From an uncultured Planctomycetaceae bacterium (lineage in GTDB: Bacteria > Planctomycetota > Planctomycetia > Planctomycetales > Planctomycetaceae): a DNA stretch of 8,124 nt. The stretch covers positions 1 to 8,124 of the forward strand of contig CAIXQV010001214.1 in NCBI GenBank assembly GCA_903921605.1, in the 5' to 3' direction. The notes below the pieces were generated by a model that saw nothing but the letters and a program-made list of their open reading frames with translations, was not told where the DNA came from and searched no databases. Each line of letters opens with the position of its first letter. The first letter of the stretch is position 1. Positions 1 through 7,606 of this stretch are shown here, piece by piece. A program made the position numbers and the translations under genes.

Positions 1-38
1 CCGCGTATTACACGCTGCACTACATCCCAAAGGAATAG
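1..38 (+). CDS. Possible 3' end of an upstream plus-strand gene
   Basis: Frame 3 reads AYYTLHYIPKE and then a TAG stop at 36-38. This is an ordinary-looking protein C-terminus with codons typical of the window, and it ends just before the convergent gene that stops at 41. Only eleven residues are visible, so no family can be named. The alternative is that these bases are non-coding downstream sequence of the minus-strand gene. The call rests only on an open frame and plausible composition. Confidence 0.3.
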   Translation, partial: AYYTLHYIPKE

Positions 39-40
39 GG

Positions 41-439
41 CTACGCTGCATCTCGCATGATGTCTTCAACCACTTGACGGCGTTTGGACCGGCGGCGGAG
101 TTTATGCATCCAGCGATCTTCGCCATCGTCTGTTTCTTTGAGAAACGATCCGGCCAGCAGGCGATAGAAGAAGAGCAGTGTGAATGCTCCGAAGACAGCA
201 GCGAAGAAGCCCTTCACACTGATCGGATCCACCGTGGCGTCGCGCCAGAAGAACAGCACGGTTCCGCATCCGATCACGCTGCCCCCGATGCCGGTCAGCA
301 TGGTCGCCACTGCACCACCAGGATCGCGGCCTGGCATCACAGCCTTGGCGGCGAGGCCGGTCAGGGTGCCAAAACCAACCCAGCGCAGAAGCTCATTGAC
401 GCTGGTGCGTAAGACTTCGACGAATTCAGCTTCTGTCAT
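41..439 (-). CDS. Small membrane protein with a GlsB/YeaQ/YmgE (transglycosylase-associated) domain
   Basis: The 132-residue product has a glycine-rich hydrophobic segment at about residues 19-64 containing GLAAKAVMPGRDPGG and GIGGSVIG. This is the pattern of the small GlsB/YeaQ/YmgE membrane proteins (Transgly_assoc family), often linked to stress responses but without a proven activity. Those proteins are usually about 80-90 residues. This one adds a further membrane segment at about 76-97 and a very basic C-terminal tail (RRRSKRR near residue 115-121), likely cytoplasmic. I chose the ATG at 437-439 because AGGAG at 449-453 lies 9 bases upstream of it. The frame is open further upstream, to 553, but those alternative starts lack a ribosome site and would add a charged, non-conserved extension. 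The gene is transcribed divergently from the 604 gene. Confidence 0.7.
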   Translation of the reverse strand: MTEAEFVEVLRTSVNELLRWVGFGTLTGLAAKAVMPGRDPGGAVATMLTGIGGSVIGCGTVLFFWRDATVDPISVKGFFAAVFGAFTLLFFYRLLAGSFLKETDDGEDRWMHKLRRRSKRRQVVEDIMRDAA

Positions 440-486
440 GATTTGGGACTCCTGCTTTCTCCTGTCTTCTCTTTTCGGCATACTTG

Positions 487-540
487 TCCGATTCCACGCA
501 GTCCGAAAACTCTTCTTCCAGGACTGTCCGTTGAATCGGA
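487..540. repeat. Long imperfect hairpin in the divergent intergenic region
   Basis: TCCGATTC (487-494) pairs with GAATCGGA (533-540), ACG (496-498) with CGT (529-531), and CAGTCC (499-504) with GGACTG (521-526). This gives 17 base pairs broken by one mismatch (495/532) and a 2-base bulge (527-528), around a 16-base loop. The loop is purine-rich on the minus strand. The element sits in the leader of the minus-strand gene (48 bases from its start) and upstream of the plus-strand gene at 604. It could be a leader RNA structure or a protein-binding dyad; its function is unknown. I saw no convincing -35/-10 pair in the rest of 440-603. Confidence 0.55.
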
Positions 541-603
541 GAACTTTCGGCAATTGTTGCCGGTCACCGTGGACCTGAAATGCTCTTTTCCTGCGGGATA
601 CCG

Positions 604-1140
604 ATGAAATTGCCGCCTGACGTTATTCGCTATCTGCTGATCGGGCAGGTGGTCATCCCGATCTTCATTAACGCCGCCATCACGTTTGGCATCGGCTGGA
701 TCACTTTTCGCCAGCAGGCGACCGTCACTGTCTGGGTTCTCGATAAGGGAGCGGTCACCGATTTTCTGGGCGCTTGTTATTTGCTCCCGGCGATAACGTG
801 TCTGATTGCAACGCCGATCGTGCGAGGTCAGGTGGCTCGGGGTGAAGCTGCTTCACTCACCGTTGACATGACCGGAACGTGGGTTCGGTTCTTCCGAGGC
901 GGTCTGATCTGGCGGGCGACAAAGTTTGGTCTGACCGGCCTGATAAGTTTGATCGGCCCCGTGATGGCCACCTGGAGTTTGTTTGGTTCCGACACGATCG
1001 CTACATTCTGGTTCCTGCTGGTCAAAGTCGCCTTCGCCACACTGCTGGGATGTGTTGTTACCCCGCTGATAGCGATCGTTGCTATGACAGATGCACCCAA
1101 ATCTCACGATCCAGAAGCTGATTCATGTTCAGAGATCTGA
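604..1140 (+). CDS. Integral membrane protein of unknown function (four predicted membrane segments)
   Basis: The 178-residue product has hydrophobic segments at about residues 10-33, 53-72, 105-125 and 132-162, separated by short basic loops (for example VRGQVARG near 73-80), so it is probably an inner-membrane protein with little soluble mass. The sequence ITFRQQATVTVW followed by LLPAITCLIATPIVR resembles a family of uncharacterised bacterial membrane proteins, but I cannot attach a function. I prefer the ATG at 604 because a weak GGGA (595-598) precedes it. An in-frame ATG at 580 would add eight residues and has no visible ribosome site. The 3' end overlaps the next gene by 16 bases, suggesting translational coupling and a shared role with that small membrane protein. 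Confidence 0.65.
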   Translation: MKLPPDVIRYLLIGQVVIPIFINAAITFGIGWITFRQQATVTVWVLDKGAVTDFLGACYLLPAITCLIATPIVRGQVARGEAASLTVDMTGTWVRFFRGGLIWRATKFGLTGLISLIGPVMATWSLFGSDTIATFWFLLVKVAFATLLGCVVTPLIAIVAMTDAPKSHDPEADSCSEI

Positions 1141-1346
1141 TTCCCTTTCTGGTACAAGGATTGTTTCTGCTGGGATTCCTGGCTCAGCTCTGGTTTGGCA
1201 TAGCGATCCTGGGGAGGCCGGGAAATCACGAGGTTGTTTACCGCGAGAAATCCCCTGTCAAGTTCTGGCTGATTATCCTGGCAGAGCTGGCCGTCGGGAT
1301 GGTGATTGGCTTGTATCAGTACGATGCGACCATGATCATGGGTTAG
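1125..1346 (+). CDS. Small two-segment membrane protein of unknown function
   Basis: A 73-residue protein with two hydrophobic helices at about residues 7-29 and 46-65, joined by a polar loop (GRPGNHEVVYREKSP). It starts inside the end of the preceding membrane-protein gene (16-base overlap) in a different frame and has no strong ribosome site of its own, so it probably depends on translation of that gene. The overlap, matching strand and good membrane topology support it as real. I do not recognise the family. It may form a complex with the upstream product. Confidence 0.5.
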   Translation: MFRDLIPFLVQGLFLLGFLAQLWFGIAILGRPGNHEVVYREKSPVKFWLIILAELAVGMVIGLYQYDATMIMG

Positions 1347-1451
1347 ACGTCACCACTTTTGGACTCGCTCCGAGGTCTCTTTTCTGTTCAGGATACTCTG
1401 GACCTTGGATGTTTGACCCATTCCCCGACTTCCGATGAAGGACACGCTGCA

Positions 1452-2894
1452 ATGAGAGTTCCTGTGTTTCAGACATTGTGTCTGATGGTGATACTGACGA
1501 TCCTGTCCGGCTCTTATCCCACCGCGGTTGCTCAGTCCGAGTTGCCTCCCAGCCTGTACATCGAAGCGTATCCGGATCGGACAAGCGTCGCGGCCAAAGA
1601 AGACTTGGCCTTTCACACGTCCACCACTGCGGCCGAGTACAGCCTGGAGATTGCTCGCATCGGTGCCAAACGCGAGGTCGTGTTTCAGAAGTCCGGCATC
1701 CCAGGTGGCGGAGCTCATCCAATTCCCGAACATGCCAGCGCCAATGGGTGTGGCTGGCCGATTAGCTTTTCGATGCCGGTTCCTTCCGAGTGGAAGTCCG
1801 GATACTACACCGCCACATTTAAAGTCACCGATGGAGGCGGCAAGTTTGTCGCTCGTAACCGCCGGACAGCCGAGACGGAATCATGGTTTGTTGTTCGTCC
1901 TTCGAGCTTCGACAAGAACGTAAAGATCCTGCTTCAGCTCGCCACGAACACCTACAACGCTTACAACAACTGGGGCGGCAGCAGCTTGTACGCTTACCAT
2001 GGTCGAGCCAATCTGCAGGGGCATCGAGTGTCCTTTCAGCGACCTCAAAGCAGTTTGTTTCCCAACTGGGAACAACCATTTGTCGCCTGGGCAGAATCAA
2101 ACGGCTTCGTGATCGACTATTGCTCGAATCTCGATCTGGAGCAGCGGCCGGAACTACTCGAACACTATTCTCTGGTTCTAAGCGTTGGCCATGACGAATA
2201 CTGGTCTGCCGGGATGCGTGATCGCCTGGAAGCATGGATCGCGAAGGGCGGGAACGTGGCCTTTTTCAGCGGGAACACCTGCTGCTGGCAGGTTCGTCCC
2301 GAAGAGAACGGACAGGCTCTGACCTGTTACAAACAGACGTTTAATCTCGACCCGGTGTTCAAGACTGACGACCATAGTTTGCTGACGACGACATGGAGCC
2401 ACCATCTGGTGAAGCGGCCGGAAAATCTCCTGACGGGTGTCGGTTTCCTGTACGGCGGATATCACAAAAGCCACGGCCAGTTCATGGACGGCAGCGGAGC
2501 GTTTACGGTTCATCGCCCCGATCACTGGATGTTTGCCGATACAAATCTGAAGCCCGGCGACAGCTTCGGTGGCCAGCATACGATCGTTGGTTACGAATGT
2601 GACGGTTGTGAGCTGCAATGGAAGGACGGCGTTCCCTCCCCGACTCATCGCGACGGGACTCCCGAGTCCTTTGAAGTGCTCGCGACGTGTCAGGCTCAAT
2701 GGGCTCCGGACGACTGCGAGTGGTATGACCAGTGGGAACAGGGTCGAGTCGGCGCGGCGTGCCTGGGTATTCGCACCGACGGCGGCACCGTCTTCACCTG
2801 TGGTTCCACCGACTGGGCTCACGGCCTGCGCGGCGGTGACGCGGTGGTCGAACAGATCACTCGCAACATCCTGAAGAAGTTGTCGGCACCCTGA
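1452..2894 (+). CDS. Exported N,N-dimethylformamidase large-subunit-like protein
   Basis: The 480-residue product starts with a signal peptide of about 28 residues ending near TAVAQ, so the enzyme is probably periplasmic or secreted. The body matches the C-terminal catalytic region of the N,N-dimethylformamidase large subunit: WKSGYYTA near 115-121, TYNAYNNWGG at 167-176, GHDEYW at 246-251, FFSGNTCCWQVR at 271-282, and a GYE motif at 380-382. The characterised enzyme has a mononuclear iron held by two tyrosines and one carboxylate. By motif and spacing the counterparts here are Tyr168, a tyrosine at 118 or 119, and Glu249, with His247 and Asn275 also in the active site. All are present, so an active amide hydrolase is plausible, but the substrate is unknown. 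No small-subunit gene is nearby. The ATG at 1452 is chosen because AAGGA (1438-1442) lies 9 bases upstream and it starts the signal peptide; the frame is open from 1359 but the added residues look non-coding. Confidence 0.8.
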   Translation: MRVPVFQTLCLMVILTILSGSYPTAVAQSELPPSLYIEAYPDRTSVAAKEDLAFHTSTTAAEYSLEIARIGAKREVVFQKSGIPGGGAHPIPEHASANGCGWPISFSMPVPSEWKSGYYTATFKVTDGGGKFVARNRRTAETESWFVVRPSSFDKNVKILLQLATNTYNAYNNWGGSSLYAYHGRANLQGHRVSFQRPQSSLFPNWEQPFVAWAESNGFVIDYCSNLDLEQRPELLEHYSLVLSVGHDEYWSAGMRDRLEAWIAKGGNVAFFSGNTCCWQVRPEENGQALTCYKQTFNLDPVFKTDDHSLLTTTWSHHLVKRPENLLTGVGFLYGGYHKSHGQFMDGSGAFTVHRPDHWMFADTNLKPGDSFGGQHTIVGYECDGCELQWKDGVPSPTHRDGTPESFEVLATCQAQWAPDDCEWYDQWEQGRVGAACLGIRTDGGTVFTCGSTDWAHGLRGGDAVVEQITRNILKKLSAP

Positions 2895-2923
2895 AACCGT
2901 CTGTAAAGGGTGTTGTTCCCGTA

Positions 2924-2945
2924 CGATGGGCATTCCTGCCCGTCG
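2924..2945. terminator. Hairpin between convergent genes, candidate bidirectional terminator
   Basis: CGATGGGCA (2924-2932) and TGCCCGTCG (2937-2945) form a 9-bp stem with one G-U pair and a TTCC loop. It sits 29 bases after the stop of the plus-strand gene and 47 bases past the stop of the minus-strand operon. Neither side has a clear T-run, so this is not a textbook intrinsic terminator. Position and stem quality suggest transcription ends here from both directions or that it stabilises the 3' ends. Confidence 0.5.
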
Positions 2946-2992
2946 AATTGTTCTCGGCCACGAATGCCGAACGTACGACATTTCTACGTCCG

Positions 2993-4309
2993 CTACTCCG
3001 GCGGGATCGGGCTACCGTGAGGATCGATTACCGGGGCCGAGGTTTCCTGTTGCAGACGGTCTCGCAATTCGCGGCCAGTGAAATGTTCCAATTGTTCAGC
3101 CTGACCGTGAATTCGATCGACCGCCACGCCACCTTCAGAAACCAGATACTGTTCCCACAGCCGATGAGAACGAACCAATTCTGCTCCAAGACGGCGACCG
3201 GAATCCGTAAGCTGATAGCCGTTCGCTGTGGCGATGACGTGGCCTTTTCGTGCATGCTGCTTCATCAGCAGAGAACTCATTAAGCCGCCGGAGAGCAGGG
3301 CGGCTCGTAGTTGGTCGATCGACGCCACAACGCCCGATTTTCTTTCGTCCATCCGGTACAGCAGAGCAATCAGGTCCTCGGAAAGAATTCTGCGAGACAG
3401 CCGCTGGCGACGCAGGATCCTGATCAATACTCCATGCTGTGGTGCTAACAACGAAACCAGAAAAAAGATTATCCCGGCACACAGAGCCATCATCCCGGAT
3501 GTGCTGGTACTGCGATAACCAAACCAGTTCGGCACGACCAATGCTGATACGTGCCCCAAAGTCGCTGACACGGCTGCGATCAGCGCGCTGACGATGATCA
3601 TCGATCGCAATCGTTCCGTCAGTAAGAACGCGGTCGCGGGCGGGACGACAAACATGGCGACGACCAGAATATTTCCGACAGACTCAAAACTGGCGACTGC
3701 CGTCACGGCCACAATGATCATCAGGAGATAATGCATGAGTCTGGCACTGATGCCACAAGTGGTGGCCAGAGCCGGGTCAAACGCGCTGAGTTTCAGCTCT
3801 TTGAAGAAAAGTACCACCACGACCAGATTGATGACCGTCACGGCAGCCAGCACCAACACGACTCGGGGAATTTCTGTTCCGGCTACATCCACCATGTCGA
3901 AGGTGGTCGTCTCCAGTGATCCGTAAAGCACGCAACCGGGATCCAAGTCCACGTGATCGGCGGCCTGAACAATCATCACCAGTCCCAGGGCGAAGAGCGT
4001 AGTAAACACGACGCCCATCGAAGCGCCTTCGTCGACTTCTCCGAAGTTGCGAATCCATTCGGTGAAGACGGCCGTCAACAAGCCGACCACCACCGCCCCG
4101 AGAAACATCGGAAGACTCGAACGGCTGCCAGTAATCAAAAAAGCGACCGCCAGACCGGGGAGAATCGCGTGGCTGATTGCATCGCCCAGCAGACTCATGC
4201 GGCGGAGCAGCAGAAAATTTCCTGGCAGCGATGCTGCAACGGCGCAGAGGATTCCAGCCAGCACGATCCAGCCATCATAGTCCCATGACCAATTGCTGAG
4301 CGCGCTCAT
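2993..4309 (-). CDS. ABC-3 metal permease fused to a C-terminal DtxR/MntR-like sensor domain
   Basis: Residues 1 to about 300 are a ZnuB/TroD-type ABC-3 permease with about eight membrane segments and the motif GDAISHAILPG at 42-52. Plain permeases of this family end near 280-300 residues; this one has 438. A basic stretch (RRQRLSRR, 300-307) leads into a region like a complete metalloregulator: helix SEDLIALLYR at 310-319, a winged-helix region at about 327-371, then SHRLWEQYL at 381-389 and HGQAEQLEH at 401-409, ending with DPHGSPIP at 429-436. By alignment to DtxR/MntR from memory, ligand positions Asp312, His382, Glu386, His401, Glu405, Glu408 and His409 are retained; the MntR Glu11 position is alanine. 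Glu405 replaces the cysteine of iron-type DtxR, as in manganese-type MntR. It is the last gene of the operon, overlapping the preceding one by 4 bases (ATGA), with GGAG (4318-4321) 8 bases before the start. Confidence 0.88.
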   Translation of the reverse strand: MSALSNWSWDYDGWIVLAGILCAVAASLPGNFLLLRRMSLLGDAISHAILPGLAVAFLITGSRSSLPMFLGAVVVGLLTAVFTEWIRNFGEVDEGASMGVVFTTLFALGLVMIVQAADHVDLDPGCVLYGSLETTTFDMVDVAGTEIPRVVLVLAAVTVINLVVVVLFFKELKLSAFDPALATTCGISARLMHYLLMIIVAVTAVASFESVGNILVVAMFVVPPATAFLLTERLRSMIIVSALIAAVSATLGHVSALVVPNWFGYRSTSTSGMMALCAGIIFFLVSLLAPQHGVLIRILRRQRLSRRILSEDLIALLYRMDERKSGVVASIDQLRAALLSGGLMSSLLMKQHARKGHVIATANGYQLTDSGRRLGAELVRSHRLWEQYLVSEGGVAVDRIHGQAEQLEHFTGRELRDRLQQETSAPVIDPHGSPIPPE

Positions 4310-5712
4310 GAGACGTGCTCCGTGGCATCAACCGGATGCGGGCTGGGAGCAATCCCCTGGACTCGGCGTTTCTGAAGCAACAATTCTTCCAGTTGAGCGA
4401 TCAATTCGGGTTCGAGAACGTGCTCGATCGCATCCGCACTTTGGTCGACTCGTCCTGGAGCAACATCCGCATGAGTGATCAGATACAGCTCCCAAAGGCG
4501 ATGCTCATGAACCAGTCGGGATGCTTCAACCAACCCCGAACTGGTCAGACACAGTTTTTGATCACTGTTGCGAAAGACGAGCCCCTGTCGGCGACATCGT
4601 TCGATCTCTTTCAGAAGTCTGTGCGACGACCAGCTTCGCAGAGTCTGCAGTTCGGAAAAGGGGATTCCAGCTTTGGGGCCGCGCGATTCCTGCAGCTCAA
4701 ACATCCCGCGAAGCAGATGCTGGTGATCAACGCTGCGATTCAGATCACGCCGGCGAAGAGCTCTCACAACCACACCACGTTCCGTCCCAAACATCATGCT
4801 GATAAAAAACAGCGAGCTACAGACCAAAACAATCATGGCGCCGGCGGGAAGGTTGCGAAACAACGCACTCATCGCGGCCCCAAGAAAACCGCCTGCTCCG
4901 CCGATCGCTGCTGATATCAATATCATCTGCTTCAGATTCTGCGTCCAGAAACGAGAGGCCGCGGCCGGGATGACGAGCAGAGCGATCATCAGCACCAAAC
5001 CAACAGCCTGCAGTCCGATGATAGTGACGATCACGACCAGACCCATGAGCACAAGATCCAGAAGCAGGACCGGGTAACCTCGCGATTTCGCGAAACCCTC
5101 ATCGAAACAGAGTAATGTCAGTTCCTTAAACAGCACGCCCATGATGAGCAGCGTCAAAACGCCGGAGCAACCGATCAGAAGCCGGTCGGATTCAATCATC
5201 GACGCTGGCTTACCATAAATGAACGACTCCAGCCCGGCCGAATGTCCGACGGACTGTTGAGCGATCGACAGGATCGCGATCCCGGCGCCGAAAAAGACGC
5301 TCAGCACAATTCCCAGAGCGGCATCTTCCTTGAGTCGGGTCAGGTTGCGAACGTAGAGAATCGCTATGACTCCGGCGATACCACTCAAAGCCGCACCTGT
5401 GAGAAGAACCGGCAGTGACTTTTCTGCCAATCCCAGACTGGGAGCAATCAGAAACGCCAGGCCAACCCCGGGCAATGTCGCATGGCTCAGAGCATCACCC
5501 ATGAGTGCTCGGCGGCGGAGCAGGGTGAAGCTGCCGACCATGCCGGCGGCCAGCCCCAGCAGCATTGTCCCAAGCATAACGACGCGTGTGTTGTAGTCCT
5601 GAAGTAACAACACACGTTGCCACTCCGGCCACGTGGGCCAGCGAATTGAACGATCCGTCAAAGATGATGCTGCGAATGCGAGAAAGCTATGGAGAGCACA
5701 GAGAGTTCTCAC
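4306..5712 (-). CDS. ABC-3 metal permease fused to a partly degenerate DtxR/MntR-like domain
   Basis: A 468-residue second permease, the partner of the downstream one in the importer's membrane core. Membrane segments lie from about residue 43 to 310, with the family motif GDALSHATLPG at 72-82. From about 320 on it carries the same type of extension: a winged-helix-like part (about 327-392), HEHRLWELYL at 402-411 and DQSADAIEH at 423-431. Of the DtxR/MntR ligand positions, His404, Glu408, Glu430 and His431 are kept; Asp423 stands where a histidine is usual and Asp427 where Glu or Cys is usual; the first-helix acidic ligands are absent. The C-terminal DPHG-type motif is replaced by SPHP (457-460). 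The start is a GTG (5710-5712) that overlaps the ATPase stop by 4 bases, with GGGAG (5721-5725) 8 bases upstream. Mn, Zn or Fe is likely the substrate. Confidence 0.86.
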   Translation of the reverse strand: MRTLCALHSFLAFAASSLTDRSIRWPTWPEWQRVLLLQDYNTRVVMLGTMLLGLAAGMVGSFTLLRRRALMGDALSHATLPGVGLAFLIAPSLGLAEKSLPVLLTGAALSGIAGVIAILYVRNLTRLKEDAALGIVLSVFFGAGIAILSIAQQSVGHSAGLESFIYGKPASMIESDRLLIGCSGVLTLLIMGVLFKELTLLCFDEGFAKSRGYPVLLLDLVLMGLVVIVTIIGLQAVGLVLMIALLVIPAAASRFWTQNLKQMILISAAIGGAGGFLGAAMSALFRNLPAGAMIVLVCSSLFFISMMFGTERGVVVRALRRRDLNRSVDHQHLLRGMFELQESRGPKAGIPFSELQTLRSWSSHRLLKEIERCRRQGLVFRNSDQKLCLTSSGLVEASRLVHEHRLWELYLITHADVAPGRVDQSADAIEHVLEPELIAQLEELLLQKRRVQGIAPSPHPVDATEHVS

Positions 5713-6503
5713 AGCGTCCGCTCCCGACGTCGCATCGCTTCGGTGGCCTCGTCCAGCAGTGTCAGTCGGCCGCCGTAGGTCTTTTCGAGATTATCTCGAG
5801 TGAAAACGGTATCGGTCGGACCACTTGCAACGACTCGCATGTTCAACAACACGACCGAATCGAAGTATTCCGGGACCGTATGCAGATCATGATGAATCAC
5901 AATCGCGGTTTTGCCGGCCTGCTTCATCTCCCGCAGAATCTGCACGATGGCTTTTTCCGTCGCAGCGTCGACTGCCGCAAATGGTTCGTCCATCAGATAC
6001 AGGTCCGCATCCTGCACTAGCGCTCGAGCGAGGAATGTGCGTTGCTGCTGACCACCGGATAACTGACTGATTTGTCGATTCGCAAATTCGCCGATTCCGA
6101 CTCGCTCAAGAGCCTGTTGAGCGGCTTCTCGATGTTTGCGGCGAACCGGCATGCACCAGCCGATCTTCCCGTACAGCCCCATGGTCACGACATCCAGCAC
6201 GCTAACGGGAAAATCCCAGTCCACGCTTTCGCGCTGGGGAACGTAGCCGACGCGGTGACGACTGCGTTTGTAAGACTGGCCAAAGATCTCGATTCGCCCC
6301 GAGGCCCGCGGGACGAGATCCATGATGGCCTTCAGAAATGTGCTTTTGCCGGCTCCGTTGGGGCCGATCACGCCGACCAATTGCCCGGGAGAGACATCCA
6401 GACCCACGTCCCAGATCACCGGCTTGCGGTACCACGCGACTGTGAGATCTTTCACAGAAAGTGGCAACGAGTTATTGGGTGGCTGGGTGATCGATCCGCT
6501 CAT
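5709..6503 (-). CDS. Metal ABC transporter ATP-binding protein (TroB/MntB/ZnuC type)
   Basis: The 264-residue product is a complete ABC ATPase: Walker A GPNGAGKST at 47-55, Q-loop VPQ at 88-90, signature LSGGQQQR at 148-155, Walker B LYLMDE at 168-173, D-loop around AAVD at 176-179, and the switch histidine in IHHD at 203-206. The sequence after the Q-loop (RESVDWDFPVSVLDVV) is typical of manganese/zinc/iron importers. It powers uptake through the two permeases encoded directly downstream. The ATG at 6501-6503 overlaps the stop of the binding-protein gene by 4 bases, and AAGGAA (6509-6514) sits 5 bases upstream. No extra domain is present. Confidence 0.95.
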   Translation of the reverse strand: MSGSITQPPNNSLPLSVKDLTVAWYRKPVIWDVGLDVSPGQLVGVIGPNGAGKSTFLKAIMDLVPRASGRIEIFGQSYKRSRHRVGYVPQRESVDWDFPVSVLDVVTMGLYGKIGWCMPVRRKHREAAQQALERVGIGEFANRQISQLSGGQQQRTFLARALVQDADLYLMDEPFAAVDAATEKAIVQILREMKQAGKTAIVIHHDLHTVPEYFDSVVLLNMRVVASGPTDTVFTRDNLEKTYGGRLTLLDEATEAMRRRERTL

Positions 6504-7558
6504 GGTTGTTCCTTTGGCAACGTCAGCTTGCCGGAAAGGCCACGTTCCGGGGCGGTTCCGCCGAGAGCTCTGGCGACCATCGTAATATTGTGGTCGAGCA
6601 TCCCGAGGTAAGTGCCCTCATAAATGCCGGCGGCTCCCATCGCATCAGAGAAAAGCTCGCCGCCAATCTTGACGTCGTGTCCCCGAGACTTCGCGCCATC
6701 GATCAGGGCCAGAATGTTCTTTTGAGGCACGCTGCTTTCCACAAAGACAGCCGGAACCTTTCGCTCAACCAGCAGATCAACCAGCTCATTGATCCGCTGC
6801 AACCCGGCTTCGGATTCTGTCGACAGCCCCTGAACGCCAAGTACTTCCAGATTGTAAGCACGGCCAAAGTAGTTGAACGCATCGTGCGACGTCACGAGCA
6901 CTCGACTTGATTCTGGAATTGAACCGATCGCGGACAGTCCATACTCATGCAGGGCCTGCAGAGTTTTTCGATATTCAACAGCGCGAGATTGGAACTCCGT
7001 CGCATGGTCGGGCAGCGACTTGCTGAGTCCTTCGGTGATCACATCAAGACAATTGGCCCACGCGGCCACATCCATCCAGACATGCGGATCAGGGTGATCG
7101 CCGGCGCCGTCGGGCTTCAGGAGAAGATCCTGAGGCAAATCTCGGGTCATCGCGAAAACCGGCTTTTTCTGCGCGATGCGATTGAAGGTGTCTTCAAGTC
7201 GACCTTCCAGCATCAGGCCATTGGTGAAGACCAGATCGGCGGTCATGATCTGCTGCACGTCATCTCGAGTGGCTTTGTAGAGGTGTGGATCAACCCCCGG
7301 ACCCATGAGCTGAGTCAGCTCGATCCGTTCGCCACCAATCTCTCGAACGACGTCAGCCACCATGCCGACGGTGGCCACAACTTTCAGTCGACCGCCGTTG
7401 CTCGACGTACTGTTTTCGCTCGTAGCTGTTGAAGGATCGCCGTTCTGGCAACCAGTGAAAAGCACCAGCAAAGTCAGCAAAAACCGGTGCAAAAATGACG
7501 AGTTTCGGTTCGCCATGCGACACGCTACTGCGTCAGCACTGAGCAGCCACTTCTGCAT
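6500..7558 (-). CDS. TroA/ZnuA-type metal-binding lipoprotein of the ABC importer
   Basis: A 352-residue cluster A-I solute-binding protein. A signal peptide ends in the lipobox LFTGC, with Cys37 as the lipidated residue, followed by a Ser/Thr/Asn-rich linker and the binding domain from about residue 57. Expected metal ligands are all visible: His92 (VDPHLY), His159 (DPHVW), His225 (TSHDAFNYFG) and Asp305 (ELFSDAMG). This His-His-His-Asp set and the GVQGLSTESE motif (241-250) match TroA-like proteins, which bind zinc or manganese. The long histidine-rich loop of zinc-specific ZnuA is missing (only DHPDPH), so manganese or a broad range is favoured. I chose the ATG at 7556-7558 because AAGGAA (7568-7573) lies 9 bases upstream. 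An internal ATG at 7514-7516 would give a tidier, shorter signal peptide but lacks a ribosome site. First gene of the four-gene operon. Confidence 0.93.
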   Translation of the reverse strand: MQKWLLSADAVACRMANRNSSFLHRFLLTLLVLFTGCQNGDPSTATSENSTSSNGGRLKVVATVGMVADVVREIGGERIELTQLMGPGVDPHLYKATRDDVQQIMTADLVFTNGLMLEGRLEDTFNRIAQKKPVFAMTRDLPQDLLLKPDGAGDHPDPHVWMDVAAWANCLDVITEGLSKSLPDHATEFQSRAVEYRKTLQALHEYGLSAIGSIPESSRVLVTSHDAFNYFGRAYNLEVLGVQGLSTESEAGLQRINELVDLLVERKVPAVFVESSVPQKNILALIDGAKSRGHDVKIGGELFSDAMGAAGIYEGTYLGMLDHNITMVARALGGTAPERGLSGKLTLPKEQP

Positions 7559-7590
7559 AACTCCAGCTTCCTTTTTTCTTCGCAACCGGA

Positions 7591-7606
7591 TGTAGCATAG
7601 GCTACA
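7591..7606. promoter_or_regulatory. Dyad operator candidate upstream of the metal-import operon
   Basis: TGTAGC (7591-7596) and GCTACA (7601-7606) form a perfect 6+6 bp inverted repeat with a 4-base spacer. It lies just downstream of the proposed promoter, at roughly +7 to +22 of the operon transcript, a position where a bound repressor would block transcription. The centre (TAGGCTA) slightly resembles DtxR-type boxes, but the full dyad is not a clear match to DtxR, MntR, Fur or Zur consensus sites as I know them. The regulator is unknown. Confidence 0.45.

Follow-up and report, generated by a model that had tools for sequence, protein, structure and literature searches.

In Chlamydia trachomatis, an ABC-type (ATP-binding cassette) permease fused to a DtxR-like regulator, YtgC–YtgR, has been described and studied experimentally. 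According to PMC5599777, the protein is cleaved and acts in iron-dependent repression, and permease–repressor fusions occur in 11 phyla (Thompson et al. 2012, as cited there). The released YtgR is reported to repress the ytg and trp promoters, an account with which PMC6504234 and PMC7755916 agree. Here, we analyze an 8,124-nucleotide stretch of DNA (hereafter, the window; contig CAIXQV010001214.1 of assembly GCA_903921605.1, from an uncultured Planctomycetaceae bacterium) encoding a metal importer in which both permeases end in a DtxR/MntR-like sensor domain. An earlier note on this DNA knew of no described mechanism for such fusions, a statement that the chlamydial work corrects. The permease–DtxR fusion as such is known; what is new is the presence of two sensors per importer, with the metal site kept and the DNA-binding signature gone, together with a separate MntR and a matching dyad in relatives. 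We propose, as the probable reading, that the extensions derive from a repressor and remain on the transporter as metal sensors that exert feedback inhibition, with transcription controlled by a separate MntR.

Chlamydia YtgCR (CT069, in ytgABCD) resembles the C-type permease of the window in falling in the same C clade, in joining an ABC-3 domain to a C-terminal DtxR-like domain and in keeping the ligand positions. In 31 of 31 chlamydial loci, however, only the C permease bears a sensor and the D permease is plain, whereas both permeases do in the window. Moreover, chlamydial YtgR is reported, in the papers above, as a released repressor, whereas the window's relatives have a stand-alone MntR and a dyad. 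A different precedent is provided by the MetNI and ModABC importers, for which a review (PMC10710835) describes transinhibition through a sensor on the ATPase, with structures in support. These importers, like that of the window, carry a cytoplasmic ligand-binding domain on an importer subunit, but their domains are ATPase-borne and of other folds, whereas those of the window are permease-borne and would be inhibitory on our reading. DtxR is not mentioned in that review. In listings of mainly open-licence literature, we found neither a transport-level feedback role for DtxR domains on ABC permeases nor planctomycete cases.

The permeases of PsaBC, TroABCD and MntABC stop at the membrane domain. 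In this comparison, the 7kyp chains have 271–290 residues, as opposed to 438 and 468 residues for the window permeases. The regulator of the tro locus is a separate gene, troABCDR (PMC2628430). The window sensors share a two-domain fold, here predicted, and metal ligand positions with stand-alone DtxR/IdeR/MntR proteins (DR2539, B. subtilis MntR, DtxR), but differ from them in being fused to a membrane protein, in lacking a PF01325 match and in having a drifting recognition helix.

Both permeases carry a DtxR/MntR-like domain

The permeases and the parts of their sensors are as follows.

4306–5712, minus strand: C-type permease, 468 residues, GTG start; ABC-3 domain and C-terminal DtxR/MntR-like sensor
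4546–4746, minus strand: winged-helix half of the C sensor (residues 323–389), from the predicted fold; no PF01325 match
4588–4626, minus strand: helix at the recognition-helix position of the C sensor (model residues 363–375)
4378–4545, minus strand: metal-binding half of the C sensor (Pfam residues 390–445), from Pfam and ligand alignment
2993–4309, minus strand: D-type permease, 438 residues; ABC-3 domain and C-terminal DtxR/MntR-like sensor
3209–3400, minus strand: winged-helix half of the D sensor (residues 304–367), from the predicted fold; no PF01325 match
3245–3286, minus strand: helix at the recognition-helix position of the D sensor (model residues 342–355), poorly conserved
3002–3208, minus strand: metal-binding/dimerisation half of the D sensor (residues 368–436), from Pfam and ligand alignment

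Extensions of ~140–150 residues end both ABC-3 permeases, and each has a Pfam match to PF02742, at residues 368–436 of the D permease (E = 3e-19) and residues 390–445 of the C permease (E = 8e-12). Structure prediction on single chains models both extensions as the two-domain DtxR/MntR fold. In both models, the first sensor helix begins ~5 residues after the membrane domain, leaving no long linker, and hydropathy and charge place the sensors on the cytoplasmic side. The central observation of the earlier note, that permease and DtxR-family metal-binding domain share one open reading frame (ORF) in both permeases, is confirmed. Of the two profiles that it proposed to compare, the extensions match PF02742 and not PF01325, and the models return the winged-helix plus metal-half architecture that it had anticipated.

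A recognizable DNA-binding signature is missing from the sensors

PF01325 was matched in none of 223 fused-protein scans (E ≤ 0.01), whereas PF02742 was matched in 222; both profiles were found in all 23 stand-alone regulators scanned. The fused scans comprise 60 D, 60 C and 12 + 19 chlamydial proteins and 72 from genome loci, including the window's two; the 60 D and 60 C were thinned evenly from 110 + 112 full-length matches among 120 + 120 listed, and the rows are not all independent. Mean pairwise identity in the recognition-helix region is 0.35 for D and 0.47 for C, compared with 0.73 and 0.76 in the metal part (111 D and 113 C proteins). The ratio of helix to metal identity is 0.40–0.52 in six fused groups versus 0.89 and 1.15 in two stand-alone groups. 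In some Chlamydiota (L063 and L064; here and below, L and G numbers denote loci and genomes of our collection), the helix region is shortened.

By sequence, then, the sensors have lost a recognizable DNA-binding signature and kept their metal-binding residues, a combination that makes a transporter brake likelier than a gene switch. The earlier note had also suggested that the winged helices could still bind DNA: the fold is indeed predicted, but the profile is absent from 223 of 223 fused scans. Its other suggestion, feedback inhibition, is upheld as the model that we favor with somewhat better than even confidence.

Metal ligands and the probable metal

The ligand positions of the two sensors are:

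D sensor: H382, E386, H401, E405, E408 and H409, with D312 on the first helix
C sensor: H404, E408, D423, D427, E430 and H431, with H332 on the first helix

Apart from D position 405 (109 of 111), these positions are invariant in 111 D and 113 C proteins, a sample picked by similarity to the extension (the 110 + 112 full-length matches just mentioned, plus the window's two proteins). In 105 less selected fused rows, the ligands are kept with scattered exceptions. D312, E405, E408 and H409 of the D sensor align with the Mn site of B. subtilis MntR (Asp8, Glu99, Glu102 and His103) and not with the metal site of DtxR (Met10, Cys102, Glu105 and His106), as both are given in PMC4805248. A second-site Mn2+ in MntR has been described from simulations as a glue joining the two halves (PMC9861239). 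The metal of the window's importer is probably Mn.

Sensors of this family also occur on other transporter subunits. Three ABC ATPases (L105:6235-7338, L107:5483-6571 and L098:6939-8810) have a C-terminal PF02742 sensor without PF01325, and their genes are close to and in line with those of FTR1/FtrD iron permeases; in L105 and L107, FtsX-like permeases were checked. In all three, the iron-type selectivity position is Cys. The pairing of Cys with the iron permease FTR1 fits the Mn-like ligands of the window. In these ATPases, a transporter has apparently acquired the sensor independently. Separately, many fusion-bearing genomes encode, on other contigs, a third kind of stand-alone PF02742 regulator of ~170–190 residues with Cys in a DACKIEH-like metal site (L230, L233-L235, L237, L239-L242, L245, L247, L250 and L255).

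Evolution of the fusion

In a quick permease tree, whose outgroup does not fall on one side of a branch and which has two rows on the wrong side, the C and D permeases form two clades with Shimodaira–Hasegawa-like approximate likelihood-ratio (SH-aLRT) support of 91 and 96, each containing a chlamydial counterpart. Single-permease systems with a longer DtxR part fall outside both clades. The extension tree separates the fused rows from 21 stand-alone regulators with support of 100/97 and unites fused C, D and chlamydial rows at 96/90; two twin-FeoA regulators lie on the fused side, and the position of the single-permease group is not firm. Both trees exclude ten loci that are near-duplicates or fragments and were built without unfused TroC/TroD of other phyla. 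A single fusion before the C/D duplication is the likely history.

The ligands of the C sensor vary with the state of the D permease. In a count of 69 C rows and L082, from which L081 and six single-permease rows were left out for want of a C/D pair, Asp/Asp in C accompanies a D sensor in 24 loci, 22 of them, including the window, with both at the same locus and two with the D gene at another place in the genome. In 40, a D permease without the metal half goes with His/Glu in C. Asp/Asp in C is found with a plain D permease in four loci (L203, L211, L213 and L214), C is degenerate in one (L148), and L082 has His/Glu in C although its D permease is fused. This association follows the tree and may therefore represent one event. 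The full ligand row D-H-E-H-E-E-H is present in 20 of 27 D rows.

Many D permeases have only a short tail or no tail at all. In six planctomycete loci (L090-L095), the D permease has a tail of 75–87 residues that is winged-helix-like by sequence and has lost the metal half, and an ORF for a regulator of the 220-residue type adjoins the operon in four of the six. One of these loci also contains an 806-residue frame (L091:9348-11768) with a complete DtxR regulator (PF01325, PF02742 and FeoA) at its C-terminal end; the remainder has no Pfam match and may be merely open frame.

Named homologues of the fused permeases come mostly from planctomycetes (Planctomycetota, Planctomycetaceae, Gimesia and others), with two entries labelled Bdellovibrionales, and pairs of fused permeases are also present in the phylum to which a genome labelled Verrucomicrobia belongs (six loci read). 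Five of six genomes searched from the window's family have exactly two ABC-3 permeases, both fused, and the sixth, G119, has an additional third, weak match.

Among chlamydial relatives, the DtxR-like part of YtgCR in the genus Chlamydia amounts to 17.9–18.7 kDa in 15 proteins (L215-L229), compared with ~28–30 kDa for the cleavage product in the published accounts. The fragment should therefore include part of the membrane domain, or else it runs anomalously. G129 (the genome of L041, Chlamydia sp. 17-3921) is alone among 16 genus-level genomes in having no full-length YtgCR match, and gives a weaker, permease-only match.

A stand-alone regulator and an upstream dyad

The earlier note saw no separate regulator. 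This holds for the window, where Pfam scans of eight ORFs detected none, but not for its relatives, from whose genomes our statements about a stand-alone MntR are drawn. Ten of 11 genus-level genomes have a stand-alone PF02742 frame of 149–204 residues on another contig, and the window itself has an operator-like dyad:

7591–7606, no strand assigned: dyad TGTAGC-ATAG-GCTACA preceding the operon, a putative operator of a stand-alone MntR

Fused-length frames are present in all 11 genomes; for G001, G002, G005, G007 and G011, the sequences of the pair were read, for the other six the pair was judged by frame length, and one fused frame is cut or partial in G003 and G009. The survey of fusion against regulator that the note had proposed thus finds the two together in ten of the 11 genomes and the fusion without a regulator in G002. 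A stand-alone frame is also present in seven of seven further genomes of the family (judged by frame length, part of them read). Regulator types were assigned in part from 30 additional stretches of stand-alone frames, and a type recorded as not seen may reflect a draft genome. The E. coli-type MntR frame of G022 contains a TGA.

The dyad is matched at 11–12 of 12 positions in ten of 43 operon loci, namely those of the window and G002 and eight of the ten whose genomes encode an E. coli-type MntR. It is absent from all 25 loci for which a 220-residue regulator, but no E. coli-type one, was seen (double-fused in 12; best score 9 of 12) and from six other loci (at most 9 of 12). In each of the ten positive loci, none of 200 shuffles matched the score. 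The association is partly in-sample, as this dyad and a second one were first seen in part of the same loci, and it follows phylogeny; the window, L070 and L072, which are near-identical, do not count as independent loci. The second dyad, TTTTGA-N3/4-TCAAAA, occurs at 12 of 12 positions in seven of the 25 loci on the 220-residue side, including L086, L195 and L198 from outside the discovery set. This distribution links the upstream dyad to the stand-alone regulator rather than to the fusion, with L085 and L091 as exceptions and G002 unexplained. A stand-alone MntR would bind the dyad at 7591–7606, which resembles the E. coli MntR box.

A second TGTAGC-N4-GCTACA site lies 5' of a DUF1559/N_methyl-type gene at L186:5451, L187:2765, L192:4273-4298 and L185:5968-5995, in at least G001, G002, G005 and G047 (the DUF1559 Pfam match was checked in G005 only). 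In L185, L186 and L187, a 111-residue lipoprotein-like ORF then follows the DUF1559-type gene. These sites could constitute a small MntR regulon.

Proposed function and alternatives

We propose that the operon encodes a substrate-binding-protein-dependent Mn/Fe/Zn importer of the TroABCD/MntABC kind, in which each permease ends in a cytoplasmic, DtxR/MntR-derived sensor that remains attached to it. Under replete cytosolic metal, probably Mn2+, the ion would bind between the first sensor helix and the metal-binding helices, and the closed sensor would block the ATPase/permease cycle (transinhibition). Transcriptional control would fall to a stand-alone MntR acting separately, at the dyad that precedes the operon. 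We infer metal binding, metal identity, inhibition, ATPase contact and MntR–dyad binding alike. A broader scenario, which we put forward tentatively and at somewhat short of an even chance, is that an importer captured a complete DtxR/MntR repressor, which became two non-equivalent brakes: the D sensor with an MntR-like Mn site and the C sensor changed to Asp/Asp at two ligand positions in lineages where D has a sensor. Transcription would then have been left to a separate MntR, and YtgCR would be a one-sensor relative whose DNA binding is derived or additional.

Several observations weigh against a brake of this kind coupled to a separate MntR. The known transinhibited importers, MetNI and ModABC, bear the sensor on the ATPase and not the permease (PMC10710835), and one-sensor importers (chlamydial and some others) imply that a sensor–sensor dimer within one transporter is not essential everywhere. 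MntR Glu11 is not retained (Ala in the window's D sensor), and residues 411–450 in the metal half of the C sensor are modelled at a predicted local distance difference test (pLDDT) score of only 64–75. In the genus Chlamydia, conservation of the helix region almost equals that of the metal part (0.67 versus 0.71, a ratio of 0.94). More generally, the recognition-helix region of fused proteins is basic, with a mean net charge of +1.7 to +3.8, which would suit DNA or lipid too. The dyad is missing from the scanned region of two loci with an E. coli-type MntR, L085 and L091 (genomes G036 and G022), the former having an MntR-like gene of unsure start beside the operon. G002, by contrast, has the dyad without a stand-alone PF02742 frame, even in a repeat search with an MntR protein. 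Finally, the exact dyad, which occurs 1–5 times per genome in ten of 11 genus genomes and in 13 of 24 genomes searched, is no commoner genome-wide than its reversed control (19 versus 17 in the 11 genus genomes), and so only its position speaks for an operator role.

Some of these points would favor a different reading, in which the extensions are YtgR-like repressors, proteolytically released or membrane-bound, that bind their own operator when metal-loaded. For chlamydial YtgCR, whose permease shares the C clade, cleavage and repression of the ytg and trp promoters are reported (papers cited above), the winged-helix fold is predicted intact with a basic helix region, and G002 has the dyad without a detected regulator. 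Nevertheless, we consider this reading unlikely: PF01325 is missing from every fused scan, helix conservation relative to the metal part is far below that of stand-alone regulators except in the genus Chlamydia, and the helix region is shortened in L063 and L064. In addition, the models have no long linker ahead of the sensor, and the dyad in double-fused operons tracks the stand-alone regulator type.

Two further readings dispense with regulation. The extensions could mainly scaffold the assembly or stability of the permease–ATPase complex, with structural metal sites, as might be suggested by the winged-helix-like tail retained in some D permeases that lack the metal half and by the Trp of the HRLWE stretch, present in 104 of 105 fused rows with one gap. 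The C and D ligand sets differ, yet each is conserved, and many D permeases have a short tail or lack one, which makes this reading quite improbable. Least probable of all is that the sensors are acceptors or buffers that take the ion as it leaves the permease, with no gating. Conserved ligands, a cytoplasmic position and two sites per transporter would suit an acceptor, but the whole regulator fold is retained, including the winged-helix half, and L090-L095 keep a winged-helix-like tail, needless for an acceptor, after loss of the metal half.

If the sensors do act on transport, as in the feedback reading that we prefer, the importer would be a metal-gated ABC transporter built from a transcription factor, with a repressor fold re-used for pump feedback. 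More broadly, permease–DtxR fusions, interpreted as released repressors in the papers cited above, would gain a second, testable reading, and direct control of import would become a possibility for the chlamydial fusion as well. The difference between C and D ligands would provide a natural pair for two metal set-points on one transporter.

The importer operon and its neighbor

The remaining genes of the operon are:

5709–6503, minus strand: ABC ATPase of the importer, 264 residues, from ORF and Pfam
6500–7585, minus strand: substrate-binding protein of the ZnuA/TroA type, from ORF and Pfam, listed from TTG 7585

ATG 7558 or ATG 7516 is a likelier start for the substrate-binding protein than TTG 7585. 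Neighboring genes of the four on the minus strand share 4-base overlaps, and we take them to be transcribed as one unit. A ZnuA-type binding protein, an ATPase and two ABC-3 permeases together make up the gene set of a Mn/Fe/Zn importer (Tro/Psa/Mnt). No NCBIfam model among the matches listed (the best 25 of 203 for the ATPase), single-metal equivalogs included, reached its cut-off for any of the four proteins. Convergent with the operon, on the plus strand at 1359–2894, lies a 511-residue ORF with a match to DMFA2_C (N,N-dimethylformamidase beta-subunit-like, E = 2.5e-83).

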